Origin: Acidobacteriota bacterium
Lineage (GTDB): Bacteria; Acidobacteriota; Aminicenantia; JBFLYD01
NCBI GenBank assembly: GCA_040756905.1
Contig: JBFLYD010000047.1
Location: forward strand, 1-45,276
DNA: 45,276 nt
Direction: 5' to 3'
A program made the position numbers and the translations under genes. Shown one piece after another: positions 1-42,320 of this stretch. Numbering within the stretch: the stretch's first letter is position 1; the number at the start of each line of letters is the position of its first letter. The notes beneath the pieces were generated by a model. The model had not been told where the DNA came from and ran no database searches. It worked only from the letters and a program-made list of their open reading frames with translations.

Positions 1-177
1 ATCTTTATACTCAAATTTTATCTTTGGAGAGTTTGAGAGGAAATCCTCTCAAAGGAGGGGCTGTCTCCTTCTTAGACAGCCCCTCTGCTCAGCGAAGCGT
101 CTAAGGAGATCTTTCTCCCATAGGGAAAGTGTCGTGTCACATCAAAACAACAAAAGGCATTTAGGTGACACGACACT
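1..177 (+). repeat. In-frame palindromic element, copy A (cut by window start)
   Basis: This is the 3' part of a family of palindromic elements. It aligns without gaps to copy C (14868-15044, opposite strand). The first 127 bases are identical, and differences begin in the terminal hairpin. The terminal stem is a perfect 13-bp inverted repeat (AGTGTCGTGTCAC at 128-140, its complement at 165-177) with a 24-base loop. Two further hairpins precede it (around 31-52 and 55-84). The element ends 38 bases before the ATG of the DUF5107 gene. Its coding frame is open from base 2 and joins the downstream gene frame without a stop. By comparison with copy C, about 165 bases should lie upstream of the window. 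Confidence 0.9.
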
Positions 178-214
178 AGATTCAATTATTTCAATTGATT
201 ATTGGAGGAATAAA

Positions 215-7115: not shown

Positions 7116-7271
7116 AAAACCCTCCTTTTTTATCATAAAACTCCAAGTTTTTCTTAAAGAATTACTCAGCGTTTGTCAAGAAATCATGAGAATTTTTCCT
7201 GATTTTATGTTCGATAACGAAAGAAATAGCAATTATTTTAGCGAATCTCGTCATAAATCAATAAAAATCAA

Positions 7272-7430
7272 TTAATATAAAAGCAATAAATAATTTGTAG
7301 GGCAACCCTTTAGAGCCTGCCCCAAACCTTGCCCTGAACTTATTTCATGGGTTGATTCGGGGGTTGCTTAATGCAAGGCTAAAGCCTTGCCCTACATGTC
7401 AATTTATTTAATTCGTTTGTATTAGTTAAA
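7272..7430. repeat. Intergenic palindromic (MITE-like) element 1
   Basis: Outer arms of about 25 bases are mirrored (TTAATATAAAAGCAATAAAT on the left, and the complement of AATTTATTTAATTCGTTTGT on the right). They enclose a core that starts with GTAGGGCAACCC and ends with AAGGCTAAAGCCTTGCCCTAC. The right arm recurs almost unchanged beside the element at 30584-30690. No open reading frame is present. It fills much of the gap upstream of nrdJ. Confidence 0.75.
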
Positions 7431-12211: not shown

Positions 12212-15200
12212 TCAAAATCCTATCCATAAGAATATCTCGAGGGAGCTATTTGAGCCTTTCTCAGGGTCATGGTTAAATTCTGAAAAAACACCGAATTCGA
12301 ATATTTTCCAGAAATAAGAAAATCCAACATTAATGGAATATCCTGGTTTTCGAAAATTCTCCATAGGAAAAGAACTCTCTGCCTGAAGAGTGATTAAGAA
12401 ATCACCAGTAAGCTTCTGAATCCCTGTGCCGAGCATCATCTCGAAGAAAGGAGAATTAGAAGGTCTTAGAGGCTTCCACAATTCCATATCTCCATAGAAT
12501 TCCCAAAATCCAACTATATTCTTACCGATACCTAAACTGAGAAAACCTTCCTGGGCATGATGGGATTTGGTGGAAGATATTCCAAGATTTGTGTAGAGAA
12601 AATATGCAGGACCTAATGGAAAATCCGCCTCGGCAATAAACTCCGCTTCGCTCCTTTCTTTAGAGCTGATTTCCCCTCCTATGTCATAGAAACCTGAACT
12701 GTATACATTTAAATCCCATTTTCTGAAAGAAGATGTATAAGAAATTTCACCACTGGTTCCTATTGTCTTTCCCAAAATATCATAGGATGTCCCAAAGGAA
12801 ATCTCTCTTTCTCCCTGCCTTCTTAACACAGTTCCGAATATTCTCTTAGGTTTTTTAACTTTTTTCTCTTCGGAAGCCCTTTCATTTTTCTTAATTTGTA
12901 TTTCATCTTCTTTCGTCTTCAAAATTATAATGGCAAAAGTTTTTATTTCCGGGATTATAAAAGATATCTTCTCTTTATCAGATGAAAATTTAATTTTCTC
13001 TACTTTTCCATCTGGAGATTTTTTCAAAACCTCTATTACTTTCAATGGGATGTAAAGGTCTACCTCTATGTTCTTTAAAGGTTTCCTATCAAGATCCACC
13101 ACAGAAAAACAAATAAAATCTTTTCCCTCTCTAAGCTCAGCGATTACCTTATATTCTTTTTTAAATTTTATTGGAGAAAAATTAATATCTTTAAGTTCCC
13201 TTTTGGTTAAGTCCTTCAATGGATTTTCTTTTCTAGGATTTCCAATACCATCATAATTTCCACTTTCTCCAATGATTATTATCTTTCTTCCCTTTTCAGT
13301 AAATTTCTTTATAACATCAATAGTATTATCTTCGAGATAATTGGCCTCAGGAAGAATAAGAAATTTGTATTTTAAAAGGGTTTCCAGGGAAAGGCCATTC
13401 TCCACAACTATATCAAATGGGATGAAATTTCTATGAAGATAAAAGGAAGTCTCCCTGTAAGTCTTAAAATGTTTAGAATCACCTAGTGTCATATCACTTA
13501 AACACCTTTTGTTATTCTGTTGTGACATGACACCTTCCCTATGGGAGAAAGATCTCCTTAGACGCTTCGCTGAGCACCCCCCAGACATGGGGAAGCCTCT
13601 TCCCCATACCCCTTCAGTGTGCTTTATGAGAAATTGTTTATTTGAGAAGATATTTATGGGGCAGCACACTATATCATAGAAATCACCTTCTCCTCTATCT
13701 CCAAAATCTCTGCTTCTTGAAGAATAGAGGAGAGCCACTTCAGCCATGGACCTGGACTTATAAAAATATTTTTCATTCTCCTTTATCCATGAAAAAATTC
13801 TTTCCCTGTATTCATCTCCTACTGTTTCAGCCATAGAAGGCCCTTGAGTTTCATAGTAGTTTGCTCCATTGGAGATAATTATTCCTGCCATTCTTTCAGC
13901 ATCGTCAGGTTTATAACCATAAGTCAAAATCCATGAGGGTTTTTCTCCATCGCATGCCCTGGCAAATTTTATCATTGTGGAAAAGGCTACCCATTCTTTT
14001 AGAGATGCTTCTTTCATTCCTTTCTCTCCCAGATCCACCCTGTCCCCGATTGTTGATACTTCATGGCCAGTATAGATATCCTTTACGTCAAAGAACATTG
14101 CTGGATCATTAGCATAAAGAGTAGACCCAGGAGAGTCTCCATTCCAGTTCTCTTCAAAAACTACAATTTCAGGGTTGATTCTTTTGGCTTTTTCTTTAAT
14201 TTCTACGAGAAATCCCTTGATTTTTTCATATCTCCACAGGATCCATCTTCTCCATACATAATCATCCCAGTTCTCCTTCCTTGGAGTTTCAAACCCTGTT
14301 TCTTCTTTAAATCTTCTTTTGCTGTAAGCATCATGGGAAGGCCATAGATTTTCATGATGACCTATGGAATGCTGAAGATAGACTACATCATTCCAGATTC
14401 CATCCACTCCAGTTTTTACTATCTCCTCCACTCTTTTTAAATAGAACTCTTTATAGGGAGAACATGGGGAAAGCCATGCATCGTATTCTCCTTTCTCCAG
14501 CCAGTGTTCCTCTTCAGAGGAAATATCATTAAAGGCAATTGGCTTTCCTTCTATTGAAATCTGCATCCAATCAGGATTTTCCTTTGATGGTTCTCTTCCT
14601 TTACCAGTTACCTCAAGCCCTGTAAGATACCAGACCACTTTCAAACCTTTCTCATGGGCTTTTTCAACAACTTTTTTTATTAATTTCAGGTTTTTCTTGA
14701 ACTCATCTTCATCATGCCAGGCTGAATAATCCCAGCCGATTGGACAATCGGCAATGAGCACACTCACATTTTGCTCTTTAAAGGATTCAAGAGCCTCATC
14801 AATCTCTTTATCGCCCTCATCAGGCTCAACAGCGTATCCGGCAATTCTTGCTTTATAAGCCCATTCTGGTGTCGTGTCACCTAAATATCTATCGTTATCT
14901 CTTTGTGACACGACACCTTCCCTATGGGAGAAAGATCTCCTTAGACGCTTCGCTGAGCAGAGGGGCTGTCTAAGAAGGAGACAGCCCCTCCTTTGAGAGG
15001 ATTTCCTCTCAAACTCTCCAAAGATAAAATTTGAGTATAAAGATAAAAAATTTAATTTTCTTTTGGGGTTATAAAGGGGGTATTTTAAGTCCCCCTTCAA
15101 GAGAGGCTGTCCAGACTTTTCAGACAGCCTCAAGTCTCTTCCCCATACCCCTTCAGTGTGCTTTATGAGAAATTTTTTATTTGCGAAGATATCTATAGGA

Positions 15201-15298
15201 CAGCACACTAGCAATGATCTATCGATTGAGGGAGAGGCAATATAAAAAGATAAAAATAAAATGAAAAAACATGCTATTCTTTTAGATATTTTTTTCAT
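12212..15298 (-). CDS. Exported glycosidase-like protein with C-terminal beta-barrel, carrying two in-frame palindromic elements
   Basis: The open frame is 1028 aa. Residues 1-28 form a signal peptide (ISKRIACFFILFLSFYIAS). Residues about 30-144 are encoded by element C. Residues about 145-540 look like an (alpha/beta)8 glycosidase of the GHL/GH42-related type (EKGLKVVWYLTGLEV, DGIWNDVVYLQHS, PEIVVFEENWNG). Residues about 543-605 are encoded by element B. After that comes a Rossmann-like region similar to glutamine-amidotransferase or trimerisation folds (FLILPEANYLEDN, GRKIIIIGESG). From about 820 to the final Phe, the alternating polar/hydrophobic strands suggest an outer-membrane beta-barrel (for example EISFGTSYDILGKTIGTSGE). 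A surface-anchored glycosidase is inferred; the substrate is unknown. The start lies just before the signal peptide; no strong Shine-Dalgarno site is visible. Confidence 0.8.
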   Translation of the reverse strand: MKKISKRIACFFILFLSFYIASPSIDRSLLVCCPIDIFANKKFLIKHTEGVWGRDLRLSEKSGQPLLKGDLKYPLYNPKRKLNFLSLYSNFIFGEFERKSSQRRGCLLLRQPLCSAKRLRRSFSHREGVVSQRDNDRYLGDTTPEWAYKARIAGYAVEPDEGDKEIDEALESFKEQNVSVLIADCPIGWDYSAWHDEDEFKKNLKLIKKVVEKAHEKGLKVVWYLTGLEVTGKGREPSKENPDWMQISIEGKPIAFNDISSEEEHWLEKGEYDAWLSPCSPYKEFYLKRVEEIVKTGVDGIWNDVVYLQHSIGHHENLWPSHDAYSKRRFKEETGFETPRKENWDDYVWRRWILWRYEKIKGFLVEIKEKAKRINPEIVVFEENWNGDSPGSTLYANDPAMFFDVKDIYTGHEVSTIGDRVDLGEKGMKEASLKEWVAFSTMIKFARACDGEKPSWILTYGYKPDDAERMAGIIISNGANYYETQGPSMAETVGDEYRERIFSWIKENEKYFYKSRSMAEVALLYSSRSRDFGDRGEGDFYDIVCCPINIFSNKQFLIKHTEGVWGRGFPMSGGCSAKRLRRSFSHREGVMSQQNNKRCLSDMTLGDSKHFKTYRETSFYLHRNFIPFDIVVENGLSLETLLKYKFLILPEANYLEDNTIDVIKKFTEKGRKIIIIGESGNYDGIGNPRKENPLKDLTKRELKDINFSPIKFKKEYKVIAELREGKDFICFSVVDLDRKPLKNIEVDLYIPLKVIEVLKKSPDGKVEKIKFSSDKEKISFIIPEIKTFAIIILKTKEDEIQIKKNERASEEKKVKKPKRIFGTVLRRQGEREISFGTSYDILGKTIGTSGEISYTSSFRKWDLNVYSSGFYDIGGEISSKERSEAEFIAEADFPLGPAYFLYTNLGISSTKSHHAQEGFLSLGIGKNIVGFWEFYGDMELWKPLRPSNSPFFEMMLGTGIQKLTGDFLITLQAESSFPMENFRKPGYSINVGFSYFWKIFEFGVFSEFNHDPEKGSNSSLEIFLWIGF
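13485..13670 (-). repeat. In-frame palindromic element, copy B (186 bp)
   Basis: This copy lies within the gene at 12212-15298, on the same strand, replacing nothing visible and adding exactly 62 codons. The 5' stem is AGTGTGCT with its complement (13663-13670 and 13616-13623). The central hairpin is ATGGGGAAG/CTTCCCCAT (13587-13595 and 13599-13607). The 3' stem is GGTGTCATGTCAC paired with GTGATATGACACT, with one G-T wobble. The encoded peptide begins VCCPINIFSNKQFLIKHTEG and ends near CLSDMT. It falls between the barrel domain and the following Rossmann-like domain. Confidence 0.92.
14868..15209 (-). repeat. In-frame palindromic element, copy C (342 bp, long form)
   Basis: This copy lies within the same gene, just after the signal peptide, and adds exactly 114 codons. 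It shares both ends with copies B and D and contains 156 extra bases made of hairpins: GAGGCTGTC (15103-15111/15123-15131), AAGGGGG (15074-15080/15091-15097), TTTGAGAGGA (14992-15001/15004-15013) and AGGGGCTGTCT (14961-14971/14979-14989). The terminal stem is GGTGTCGTGTCAC, perfect over 13 bp (14868-14880/14905-14917). The reading frame stays open throughout. Confidence 0.93.
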
Positions 15299-21655: not shown

Positions 21656-21712
21656 GAGGGAAAGTGTCGTGTCAAAGAAGAATAAAAAAGGATGTTTAGG
21701 TGACACGACATT
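21656..21712 (+). repeat. In-frame palindromic element, copy E (3' hairpin only)
   Basis: Only the terminal hairpin of the family is left. AGTGTCGTGTCA at 21663-21674 pairs with TGACACGACATT at 21701-21712 (one G-T wobble), with a family-like but divergent loop. The bases before it (TAGAGGGAAAG) still resemble the TAGGGAAAG found there in other copies. The GTG at 21669 inside the stem is the apparent start codon of the glycerate kinase gene. Confidence 0.8.
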
Positions 21713-29386: not shown

Positions 29387-30583
29387 ATGAAAAATTCAAG
29401 AAGAAGTTTTATTAAAAAATTAGTTGTATCAACTCCATTACCATTTTTTATTTCCAGAAGATACATTTTCTCTCTCCCGATTCCTTATGAGTTTGAAGAG
29501 AGACCCTTTACTATTCCAATAGAATCTTTCTCTAAAAGAATTAAAAGAGCAAGAGAGAAAATGAAAGAAAATGGATTTTCCCATCTCCTTATATCTCCAG
29601 GAACAAATTTTTATTATTTCACTTCTTTAAGAACATGGTACAGTGAAAGAACAGAGCTTTTGATTCTTTCGATTGATAAAGAGCCCTACATTCTTTGCCC
29701 ATCCTTTGAACTGAGAAGGTTCAACCGTCAACCACTTATAAAAAACTTCATTCTCTGGGAAGAGCATGAAAATCCTTTCGAGAAATTGAGCGAGTTCATA
29801 TCAAAATCATCAGGCTCTAAAAAAATTGGAGTTGACCCAACTATGAGAGTGATAACTGAGGAAGGGATCAAAAAAGCTCTTCCCGATAAGGAAATACTGA
29901 ATGGAGAAGAGATTATCAATATTCTGAGAATGGTTAAGGAACCAGATGAAATCGAAGCTTTACGAAGAGCTTCCTCTATAACTTTAAATAAACTCGAAGA
30001 AGGAATGAAAAAAATTTATCCTGGAATGACAGAAAATGAACTCCAGAGAATTTTAGGAGGAGGTCTTGTTCAGTTCGGTGAAAACTCTTCAATCCCTCAT
30101 GGGTATGATGGAACGAAAAAACTTGAAAAAAATATGGTAATTCTTATCGATAAAGGGGATAGAGTTGCTGATTATGTTTCTGACATAACAAGAACATATT
30201 TCTTCGGAAAACCCTCTCAGAAATTCATCGAAGTTTGGGAAACTGTTCTAAGGGCTCAGGAAGCAGGGATGAAAGCAGCAAAAACTGGGGTTCCCTGTGA
30301 GGATGTTGACAGAGCTGCGAGAGAAGTAATCGATAAAAAAGGGTATGGAAAATACTTCATCCATAGACTTGGCCATGGACTTGGATTGGATGGACATGAA
30401 CATCCCTATCTTGTAAAAGGTAATAAACTACCTTTACCTGAGGGAACAACAATTACAATTGAGCCTGGTGTTTACATTCCAGGGGAATTTGGAGTAAGAA
30501 TCGAGGATGACTTTGTTGTTACTTCAAAAGGAGCAGAACCCCTTTCCCAGAGAATAGAAAAACTCCCTATTATAAACATTTAA
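29387..30583 (+). CDS. M24-family (Xaa-Pro) aminopeptidase with Tat-type N-terminus
   Basis: This is a 398-aa metallopeptidase that removes N-terminal residues, commonly before proline. The creatinase-like N-terminal domain precedes a pita-bread catalytic domain. The metal ligands are Asp in LIDKGDRVADYVSDITRTYF (about 254 and 265), His in HRLGHGLGLDGHEH (about 330), Glu in TITIEPGVYIPG (about 357) and Glu in VRIEDDFVV (about 371). The N-terminus NSRRSFIKKLVVSTPLPFF has the twin-arginine pattern SRRxFIK, which suggests folded export by the Tat pathway. GAGAGGG precedes the ATG. Confidence 0.9.
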   Translation: MKNSRRSFIKKLVVSTPLPFFISRRYIFSLPIPYEFEERPFTIPIESFSKRIKRAREKMKENGFSHLLISPGTNFYYFTSLRTWYSERTELLILSIDKEPYILCPSFELRRFNRQPLIKNFILWEEHENPFEKLSEFISKSSGSKKIGVDPTMRVITEEGIKKALPDKEILNGEEIINILRMVKEPDEIEALRRASSITLNKLEEGMKKIYPGMTENELQRILGGGLVQFGENSSIPHGYDGTKKLEKNMVILIDKGDRVADYVSDITRTYFFGKPSQKFIEVWETVLRAQEAGMKAAKTGVPCEDVDRAAREVIDKKGYGKYFIHRLGHGLGLDGHEHPYLVKGNKLPLPEGTTITIEPGVYIPGEFGVRIEDDFVVTSKGAEPLSQRIEKLPIINI

Positions 30584-30690
30584 CATAAACAAATTAAATA
30601 AATTGACCTGGAGGGCATGACTTTAGCCTTTTGTTAAGCAACCCTGAAGGGTTGCCCTACAAATTATTTAATGCGTTTGTATTAGGTAAA
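30584..30690. repeat. Intergenic palindromic (MITE-like) element 2
   Basis: It begins directly after the M24 stop codon. The left arm ACATAAACAAATTAAATAAA mirrors the right arm AAATTATTTAATGCGTTTGT. The right arm is nearly the same as the right arm of element 1 (7396-7430). The core ends in GGGTTGCCCTAC. It carries no coding potential. Confidence 0.7.
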
Positions 30691-30754
30691 ATTTATTTTA
30701 TTTTAAGAATTTCTATTTGAATTTTTTATTTAAATTATTTGATTTGAATTCTTT

Positions 30755-39671: not shown

Positions 39672-39809
39672 TATATTTTTATTTTTAAAAATATATTATT
39701 AGTTCTTGGCTCTGTCAATGTTTGAAAGTTTTCCAAAAAAATGATGAGGGGAATCGAAAAATATAGTAAGATTATGATGTTTTTTAAAATTTTAGTTGGG
39801 GAATTTAAA

Positions 39810-42320
39810 ATGGGAAGCATAAAAAAAATTTATACTTTGTTTATTTTTCTTTATTGGATATTTTCATCCATTTTATCTTCTCAGATGGTAAACCCTGCCA
39901 TTGACAGAGATGAGAAGCCATTTTCATACTTTAGATACCCTGTTGATGTTGTGGGAATAATGGATGGAAGGGAAGGAACTGAGATAACTCCTGAAGGTTA
40001 TCTTTATACAGGCTATTGCGAATTGATGTTTTTTACTGGAAGCCCTCCTGAACCTGTAAATCAAAGAGTAAAAACTCTTTATAAAGGATACCTTCCAATT
40101 ATTCAATATCAATTCATAAAGGAAGATGTAAAATATTCTGTTACAATTTTTGCTTTTACTCTAAATGGTAGCCCTGGAGAGAACCTTATAAATTTTATAA
40201 AAATAGAATTTCAAAATCTTTCCAATTCCCAAAGATCCGTCTATTGGACAGCTGGAACAAGATACACAGCTGAATCAAATTATATCCATGGAGTCCCTGA
40301 CCACAGGTTTAAAAGGCCAGCAAAGTCTGAAAGAATAGGAACTTACGAGCAGGCAGGAGAAGAATTCAACCCTGAATGGCAATATGAGTTTTCTGATGGA
40401 ATGATGATGAGGGATAAAAAAGTCTTATATTTTTTCCCTGAGGAAATTAAACACAAAAAACTCGTCACATTGAGAAATGAATACAGGAGTGAATATAAAA
40501 AGCCAAGAATCATGCCAACAACTCCAGTTGGTCTTGTAAAATTTGAAATTAAGCTTGACCTGGGCGAAACAAAATCCCTTGTTCTCAAAATGCCATACCA
40601 TCCAGTGTGCTGTCCCATAAATCTCTTCCCAACTAATCAACTTCTCGTAAAGCACACTGAAGGGGTATGGGAAAGGGACTTCCCCATGGGTGGGGAGTGC
40701 TCAGTGAAGCGTCTAAGGAGGGCTTGCCCCCATAGGGAAAGTGTCGTGGCACAAAAGGATAACGAAAGGTATTTAAGTGACATGACAATAGTTGCTCAAG
40801 AGGACAATCTAATAGAAAAAATAAAAAATGCTGATTTTGATGAATATCTTAAAATCACAGTAAATTATTGGGAAAAAATTCTGGGAGAAGGAATTGAGAT
40901 TTATCTATCTGAGGAAAAAGTGATAAATACTTTCAAAGCAAACTTAATCTATGACCTGATTGCAAGGGACAAAATTGGAAAAGATTATGTACAAAAAGTT
41001 AATGAATTTCAATATGATGCCTTCTGGTTAAGGGATAGTTCATACATTGTTAGAAATTATGATATATCGGGTTATCATAAAATCGCAGAACAGTGTCTGG
41101 ATTTTTTTCTTAAATGGCAGAATGAAAATGGAAATTTTATCTCTCAGGGAGGACAGTATGATGGTTGGGGACAAACTCTGTGGGCATTCGGACAGCATTA
41201 TAAGATTACAAATGATTTAAATTTTGCAAAAAAAGTTTATCATTCTGTTAAAAGAGCGATGGAGTGGCTCCATAATGCAACAAAAAAGGATCCTCTAAAA
41301 ATTATGCCAGTTACAACTTCTGGAGATAATGAATTAATAACAGGCCATGTAACAGGCCATAATTTCTGGGCTTTAGCAGGAATAAAAAATGCAATCATTC
41401 TTGCTAATGCTCTTGAAGAAAAACAGGATGTAAAATTTTTTAAAAAGGAATACGAAGATTATTTCAAGAACTTTTTAAAGGCATTAAAATACATAACAAA
41501 AAAATCTGGGGGATACATACCTCCGGGCTTAGATGATCTGAGTGGTCAGAACTGGGGAAATATGCTCTCGGTGTATCCAGAAAAGATTCTAAACCCATTC
41601 GACCAAATGGTTACAGCCACTCTTAACCATACAAAGAAAAAATATCAGGAAGGAATTATGACCTATGGAGATGGAAAATGGCTTCATCTATATCTTACGA
41701 TGAAAAACACTGAAACAGAGGTAATCCGGGGAGAACAGGAAGAAGTTCTTGAAGAATTCTATTCGATGTTAATGCACACAAGTTCAACCCATACTGGCTT
41801 TGAATTTTCAATATTACCATGGGGAGATAGGGATTTTGGACAGAATCTTACACCTCATGGATGGTTTGCTGCAAAATTCAGAGTCTTACTGAGAAACATG
41901 CTTTTAAGGGAGGAAGACAAAAATCTTCATTTATTATCAGTTATCTCTCCAGTCTGGGTGGAAGATGGAAAGGAAACATTTGTTAAGAATGCGCCAACAG
42001 ATTTTGGAAAAATTGATTTCTCAATTAAATTTAAAAAAGATGGCGCTCTCGTATACATAAACTCTCAGTTTCGCATGCCTCCTGAAAAAATCATTATTCA
42101 TATCCCCTTCTTTGTAGACCTAATCAGCGCAAAAGCTGATGAGAAAAAAGCAAAAATAAAAGATCAAACTATTTTAATTCCTTCGGCAACAAAAAAGGTC
42201 GAACTTTTATGGAAGAAAAAATCTGAAATTCCAGAATTTAGTTATGAGAAAACTGTAAAAGATTATAAAGAGGAATACAGAAAAAAATTTAAAGAGTTTC
42301 TCGAAAAAGGAGAAAAATAA
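39810..42320 (+). CDS. Exported six-hairpin glycosidase-like protein carrying an in-frame palindromic element
   Basis: This is an 836-aa protein. The signal peptide is IKKIYTLFIFLYWIFSSILS. Residues about 30-263 form a beta-rich N-terminal domain. Residues about 265-327 are encoded by palindromic element D. From about 340 comes an (alpha/alpha)6-barrel-like region typical of GH15/GH63/GH65-type glycosidases, with YDAFWLRDSSYIVRNYD, GGQYDGWGQTLWAFGQHY and SGDNELITGHVTGHNFWAL. It probably hydrolyses an alpha-linked oligosaccharide, but the family is not certain. The start at 39810 is chosen for the signal peptide and the GGGG upstream; an ATG at 39741 is also in frame. Its stop is immediately followed by the ATG of the symporter gene. 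Confidence 0.8.
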   Translation: MGSIKKIYTLFIFLYWIFSSILSSQMVNPAIDRDEKPFSYFRYPVDVVGIMDGREGTEITPEGYLYTGYCELMFFTGSPPEPVNQRVKTLYKGYLPIIQYQFIKEDVKYSVTIFAFTLNGSPGENLINFIKIEFQNLSNSQRSVYWTAGTRYTAESNYIHGVPDHRFKRPAKSERIGTYEQAGEEFNPEWQYEFSDGMMMRDKKVLYFFPEEIKHKKLVTLRNEYRSEYKKPRIMPTTPVGLVKFEIKLDLGETKSLVLKMPYHPVCCPINLFPTNQLLVKHTEGVWERDFPMGGECSVKRLRRACPHRESVVAQKDNERYLSDMTIVAQEDNLIEKIKNADFDEYLKITVNYWEKILGEGIEIYLSEEKVINTFKANLIYDLIARDKIGKDYVQKVNEFQYDAFWLRDSSYIVRNYDISGYHKIAEQCLDFFLKWQNENGNFISQGGQYDGWGQTLWAFGQHYKITNDLNFAKKVYHSVKRAMEWLHNATKKDPLKIMPVTTSGDNELITGHVTGHNFWALAGIKNAIILANALEEKQDVKFFKKEYEDYFKNFLKALKYITKKSGGYIPPGLDDLSGQNWGNMLSVYPEKILNPFDQMVTATLNHTKKKYQEGIMTYGDGKWLHLYLTMKNTETEVIRGEQEEVLEEFYSMLMHTSSTHTGFEFSILPWGDRDFGQNLTPHGWFAAKFRVLLRNMLLREEDKNLHLLSVISPVWVEDGKETFVKNAPTDFGKIDFSIKFKKDGALVYINSQFRMPPEKIIIHIPFFVDLISAKADEKKAKIKDQTILIPSATKKVELLWKKKSEIPEFSYEKTVKDYKEEYRKKFKEFLEKGEK
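40604..40789 (+). repeat. In-frame palindromic element, copy D (186 bp)
   Basis: It has the same length as copy B and adds 62 codons. The 5' stem AGTGTGCT/AGCACACT is perfect (40604-40611 and 40651-40658). The central ATGGGAAAG/CTTCCCCAT hairpin has one mismatch. The terminal stem AGTGTCGTGGCAC/GTGACATGACAAT has two mismatches and one wobble, so this looks like an older copy. The encoded peptide begins VCCPINLFPTNQLLVKHTEG. It sits between the N-terminal domain and the helical barrel of the host protein. Confidence 0.92.

Follow-up and report, generated by a model that had tools for sequence, protein, structure and literature searches.

Palindromic sequences that code for protein were first recognized in Rickettsia and later in Wolbachia, both obligate intracellular bacteria. 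The Rickettsia palindromic elements (RPEs) are described as short, mobile palindromic repeats of 105–150 bp that lie in frame within unrelated protein genes (Ogata et al. 2000, as reported in PMC10969869 and PMC2229807). Genes harbor nearly half of the 44 RPEs of R. conorii (PMC10969869), and a guanylate kinase with an RPE was translated and active (PMC2229807). TA-terminated bacterial MITEs are mostly intergenic, but fusions in frame with genes have been described for the 107-bp Correia element, ERIC and RPEs (PMC2229807, PMC10969869).

The window considered here is the whole 45,276-nt stretch of contig JBFLYD010000047.1, from an Acidobacteriota bacterium. A first-pass annotation had located two palindromic segments, copies B (186 bp) and C (342 bp), in a single 1028-aa open frame as stop-free inserts with lengths divisible by three and a common codon phase, and these coordinates are correct. 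The window also holds members of the same family that were absent from that finding: an in-frame copy in an 859-aa ORF and a long-form fragment at positions 1–178. The features are as follows.

12212–15298, minus strand: 1028-aa exported GHL6/GHL10-like glycosidase ORF with two inserts (ORF call, profile similarity, orthologues in class relatives)
13484–13671, plus strand: copy B with its flanking TA...TA; the element itself is 13485–13670, 186 bp
14868–15209, plus strand: copy C, of 342 bp, a long-form copy that has one more hairpin module inside it
39741–42320, plus strand: 859-aa exported ORF, the second host gene; DUF608/GH116 similarity is weak and below the curated cut-off
40604–40787 (in a wider delimitation, 40603–40788), minus strand: third in-frame copy, inside the 859-aa ORF, residues ~288–349
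1–178, minus strand: long-form copy cut by the contig end, directly upstream of a 1145-aa DUF5107/TPR gene and in frame with it
21656–21710, minus strand: solo left-arm hairpin, intergenic between two genes

We consider it very probable, from comparison of sequences, that B and C arose by insertion of a palindromic, non-autonomous MITE-like element that targets TA and would have been multiplied in trans, with the genic survivors being read through. Direct support for this reading comes from the family of related copies, empty sites with TA, the absence of both segments in orthologues and the logic of codon phase. Like the RPEs, as the above accounts describe them, the element has terminal inverted repeats, inserts in frame in unrelated genes, where it contributes a recurring peptide, and is also present in intergenic copies. 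It differs from them in its length of 186 bp, in its multi-hairpin core, in having under 10% of its copies in genes and in its TA ends, which in those accounts are not universal among RPEs. It is apparently a sequence family other than RPE, the two being set apart by their descriptions. The event is of the same kind as in RPEs, involving an apparently new element in a distant bacterial class, with clean evidence from orthologues and empty sites; the double insertion in one gene and the insertions that rebuild stop codons are its more unusual aspects.

With the TA-targeting MITEs Correia/NEMIS (Neisseria), ERIC/RU-1, RUP (Streptococcus pneumoniae) and QMITE (Coxiella), the element shares a length of 100–400 bp, the lack of a transposase gene, terminal inverted repeats, TA ends, a high copy number and hairpin RNA (PMC2229807, PMC5896051). 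Unlike these, it has imperfect ends of ~12 bp, arms that each fold into a hairpin of their own on either side of a conserved core, and a long form with an added module; in addition, no parent transposon was found among the DDE_3/IS630 and Y1 families searched, and the element was detected in this genome only. High-copy palindromes, hairpin pairs and solo units are also features of REP/BIME sequences with RAYT (Y1) (PMC3733652), but REPs are 20–40 bp long (PMC3733652), whereas the present element is much longer, is unlinked to the Y1 genes of the genome and has inverted ends with TA.

Anatomy and occurrence of the element family

Copy B as query matched ~40 other places in the genome at 77–93% identity. 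An 18-base core word occurs at 68 places, with no match for a reversed control pattern, and a right-arm pattern occurs at 66 places. Based on copies gathered from 52 fetched stretches and the window, the family in this 2.56-Mb genome comprises 62 full or long copies and ~25 partial pieces, arranged in 76 clusters. Most copies measure 171–197 bp and those of the long form 339–368 bp, and no transposase is coded by any of them. The only Rfam match in the window is a tRNA.

A full element consists of a left-arm hairpin, a conserved multi-hairpin core and a right-arm hairpin, and makes a net addition of 186 nt (62 codons). The consensus is TAGTGTC(G/A)TGTCAC...GTGACACGACACTTTCCCTATGGG(A/G)G(A/C)AAG..CTCCTTAGACGCTTCGCTGAGCACCCCCCAGACATGGGGAAGnnnCTTCCCCATACCCCTTCAGTGTGCT...GGGACAGCACACTA. 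The ends, TAGTGTCGTGTC and TAGTGTGCTGTC, form imperfect inverted repeats that agree at 10 of 12 positions, with near-matching inverted TAGTGT termini. The parts of copy B are delimited as follows.

13485–13535, plus strand: left-arm hairpin of copy B (AGTGTCATATCAC...GTGACATGACAC), in which columns 6/49, 7/48 and 10/45 show compensatory changes
13536–13614, plus strand: core of copy B, conserved and containing short hairpins (GGGAGAAAGATCTCC; GGGGAAGCCTCTTCCCC), with covariation of the core hairpin at columns 66/76
13615–13670, plus strand: right arm of copy B (AGTGTGCT...CAGCACACT), which in the alignments terminates in an inverted repeat of the left end

The compensatory changes in the left arm and in the core hairpin indicate that both have been kept as hairpins. 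The long form, to which copy C belongs, has one added hairpin module; B and C are 86% identical over their common 94-nt left part and 88% identical over the 90-nt right part, and siblings of copy C are present on contigs C23 (35121–35459) and C56 (15063–15403) at 88% identity. Solo arms and coreless two-arm elements are seen as further variants. The latter, in which a left arm is joined to a right arm within 87–94 bp (L062, 7296–7389, and L068, 3743–3829), may be the smallest mobile units or may have arisen by deletion.

No copy was detected in 141 other genomes of the class, the 20-base core of the element has no exact match in the GTDB r220 contigs, where a protein scan was also empty, and the element is absent from plasmid and phage collections, all of these being collections that may leave out records very near this genome. 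One viral contig with a 19-base match was set aside as a chance hit, as it has no further similarity and a G+C content of 51%.

In-frame copies and their absence from orthologues

The 1028-aa protein has an N-terminal signal peptide and a weak but significant similarity to the glycosidase-like families GHL6/GHL10. Copy B is read antisense and in frame as residues ~543–605, past the region matched by GHL10, and copy C is read in the same manner as residues ~30–143, at the boundary between the signal peptide and the mature protein. Both lengths are multiples of three and neither copy introduces a stop in the host frame. All of the relatives available for comparison are class level, none having been returned at the genus or family level. 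Against these, the protein gives matches at residues 143–540 and ~617–700 with nothing between; the residues of copy B are absent in all eight orthologues, where a single residue is aligned in place of 63, and the orthologues also lack copy C, their signal peptides leading straight into the region that follows it. The first-pass placement of C right after the signal peptide and of B between two predicted domains is borne out, both segments around B aligning to orthologues.

Three further genic copies or parts of copies were recognized in the genome. The copy in the 859-aa ORF is missing from 5/5 relatives, one of which (G002) aligns to residues 17–290 at 62% identity and then, 3 nt on, to residues 354–859 at 68% identity. 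A copy on contig C9, within a 956-aa exported protein, is missing from seven relatives, in which 8–9 residues are aligned in place of 63. At the end of contig C38, the TPR part of a DUF5107/TPR protein continues in frame from half a copy, which is placed inside the gene, on the evidence of alignment, because a paralogue and orthologues extend upstream of the fusion point. The fragment at 1–178 of the window is likewise in frame with a DUF5107/TPR gene but is probably 5′ untranslated, as a start with a signal peptide (MKSNKFL) comes after it.

The few copies in genes are all oriented antisense and read through. Their extra segment, located in linkers or behind a signal peptide, amounts to 62 residues (114 in the long form) of the type VCCPINIF..KRLRRSFSHRE..SDTT, so that across the genic hosts about 60 to 114 codons are inserted that are absent in related bacteria. 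We looked for orthologues carrying these segments as conserved domains, and those recovered are without B and C. The proposal that the segments are mobile palindromic insertions, in frame in coding sequence as RPEs are, is supported for these genes.

Several other associations with open frames were noted. Two frames crossing copies in L056 and L071 (238 and 137 aa) appear to be open by chance and were left out of the counts. On contig C18 (L039, 11133–11370), a copy and a solo arm lie directly before a gene for a BadF/BadG-family ATPase that has no evident start codon; the N-terminus and the start codon of this gene may come from the element, and no orthologue of the gene was found among 40 relatives. 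On contig C43 (L053, 3933–5419), a ~430-aa gene is bracketed by two copies in the same orientation, one at each end of its open frame.

Insertion at TA, codon phase and rebuilt stop codons

Empty sites could be read from copies that sit in other repeats of the genome. For one host repeat, empty in L064 and occupied in L040, L059 and L060, the empty site is GTTACATTC-TA-TTTTTACC and the occupied site is GTTACATTC-TA-[element]-TA-TTTTT. Of the 62 full or long copies, 38 have TA at both ends; in one group of insertion sites the ends are AA...TT instead. By these features the element is a putative MITE-like element that targets TA and duplicates it to TA...TA; insertion of an element-borne terminal TA on the 3′ side of a TA would fit equally.

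Five copies (L040, L059, L060, L068 and L087) are found at the same TA of this host repeat (empty in L064, 1405–1550), which belongs to a second repeat family unrelated to the element (TAATACAAACGCACAAATATTTGTTACAT...CACCCCCGCATCAAGTACGGGG). Their cores and right arms differ, which suggests that copies have recombined or been converted, or that insertion took place repeatedly. A different inverted repeat family, TGCGTTTGTATTA...GGGTTGCCCTACAAAT, occurs in the window at 7260–7424 and 30581–30697 and has many copies in the genome; it is a landing site for the element in L042, L065 and L075. The second repeat family, TAATACAAACGCACAAATATTTGTTACAT...CACCCCCGCATCAAGTACGGGG, is also found in frame (FVTSYPFSPSPPHQVRGRLQSSPLRGEGGVRG) in the TPR protein of contig C38 (L051, 3464–3586), and the paralogues of that protein are shorter there.

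Read in the direction of the gene, both B and C enter so that the A of the junction TA is the third base of a codon. When the consensus is placed in the six combinations of orientation and phase, only two placements are free of stops: (i) antisense NTA and (ii) sense with T as the third base of a codon. When the TA occupies codon position 1, the result is always TAG, which would be harmless only within a native stop codon, where the stop is restored, and insertions in the remaining phases would usually meet a stop. All genic copies have antisense NTA or a mutated form of it; with only ~5 genic copies, the lack of copies in the sense orientation may be chance. The first-pass annotation was right that B and C enter at the same codon phase; TA targeting and the removal of insertions that make stops account for this phase with no special mechanism. 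The resulting rule for surviving genic insertions (TA target, codon phase and rebuilt TAG) is simple and could be tested on RPEs and other MITEs.

At 12 junctions between a gene and an element, the gene stops at a TAG whose TA is that of the junction and whose G is the first in the element. The joined empty site is TAA or TAG at eight of these 12, indicating that the element entered the native stop codon and that this was rebuilt as TAG with the protein unchanged. Among the TAs of this DNA that are non-coding or lie in stop codons, the latter make up ~4%, and the observed 8/57 is an excess (p about 0.002) in what is an exploratory, post hoc test based on a simple ORF caller. QMITE1 insertions in Coxiella similarly extend over the 3′ ends of functional genes, for which they can provide the stop codon (PMC5896051); the present element differs in that the native stop-codon TA is itself the insertion point at at least eight sites, with TAG rebuilt and the protein unaltered. 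It is conceivable, though we regard it as doubtful, that the family has evolved towards insertions that do no harm, with ends (TA followed by G on each strand) that rebuild TAG in a stop codon, and with a net length of 186 and two stop-free frames, one per orientation, by which it passes through genes as a neutral spacer of 62 codons, so that compatibility with coding would have been selected in selfish DNA and would not be an accident. Two or more stop-free frames are found in 42 of 5000 dinucleotide shuffles, such that the consensus has more than expected, with shuffles that ignore the pairing of the hairpin arms, which couples the frames of the two strands.

Apparent purging of genic copies and rival explanations

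About 55 of the 62 full or long copies are intergenic or at gene ends and about 5–6 (under 10%) are in genes, and the net length is not a multiple of three in 33 of the 62. The comparison with RPEs made in the first-pass annotation is therefore limited to the genic minority: it describes the behavior of these copies well, but not a habit of the family, most copies of which are out of frame or intergenic, a finding that the first-pass annotation had itself named as counting against its reading. Approximately 80% of the TAs in this DNA lie in coding sequence and, set against the 5–6 genic copies, this makes genic insertions appear strongly purged. In the mechanism that we propose, the element would insert at TA and duplicate it, a transposase whose type we infer would act in trans, and selection would then remove most of the hits in genes. 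Neither a frameshift nor a stop is present in the three full-length genic copies, as compared with net frameshifts in 23/43 and stops in 19/43 elsewhere, a comparison that is ascertained in that genic copies are recognized by their open frame.

What remains in the genes would, if translated as the open frames imply, probably be tolerated spacers, and this tolerance would be the reason for their survival. The three full-length genic copies have 56 substitutions from the consensus, and their ratio of synonymous to nonsynonymous changes (14:42) gives no sign of selection on the inserted residues when compared with non-genic copies (199:627; Fisher p 0.75) and the neutral expectation (115:408). 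The same peptide is found in several exported proteins and includes the basic stretch KRLRRSFSHRE, as might be expected of a conserved functional domain or a domesticated peptide with a selected function, but such a role is very unlikely given that the genic ratio resembles both the non-genic and the neutral ones, that every orthologue lacks the insert and that the segment is modeled as coil. For the 859-aa protein, AlphaFold2 gave a poor model (mean pLDDT 50) in which the insert has a pLDDT of 21–25, and which suggests a coil that would link a beta domain to a helical domain; no solved structure matches this family.

Removal of the segments at the RNA level, or their skipping by ribosomes, would leave the mature protein without them, as for intervening sequences and the bypassed hairpin elements of yeast mitochondria. 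The strong hairpins of the insert and the near-repeat of TA at its two boundaries would suit such a process. Skipping would not, however, demand that the segments be open, and the genic copies are all open and multiples of three in a family where 33/62 are not and where 19/43 non-genic copies have stops; the boundary codons of copy B also differ (ATA versus CTA). We give this explanation very little credence. Still less plausible is an assembly artefact, in which contigs misjoined at a high-copy repeat would place the repeat inside genes. Several contig ends do fall in copies (window 1–178 and the ends of C38 and C13), and copies are 80–93% alike, but most differ by 7–20%, which is enough for assembly. 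A misjoin would pair unrelated flanks, and it is very unlikely for copy B, the copy in the 859-aa ORF and the C9 copy because both flanks of each align in order to one orthologous protein; this argument is weaker for copy C, where the upstream side is the signal peptide alone.

It is also unlikely, though less so than these, that a Y1 transposase (IS200/IS605 or RAYT-like) moves the element in single-stranded form, in the manner of REP/BIME sequences and without duplicating the target. Such a process might produce a hairpin arm at each end, the solo arms and the two-arm elements that lack a core, and the genome has four Y1 transposase loci. None of these loci, however, carries the element or its arms, other repeats being common to them instead, and the two ends of the element match as inverted repeats, with a TA on either side of 38/62 copies. 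No IS630/DDE_3 (mariner-type) transposase was found in the genome, which is 97.8% complete. Since the transposase search, which covered the IS630/DDE_3 and Y1 families, gave no linked autonomous partner, we use the label MITE-like and not MITE; the parent transposon may have been lost or may be elsewhere. Two of the Y1 transposase genes (L119 and L121, on contigs C45 and C43) are frames of 335–340 aa with short repeats of their own and are likely RAYT/REP systems separate from the element.
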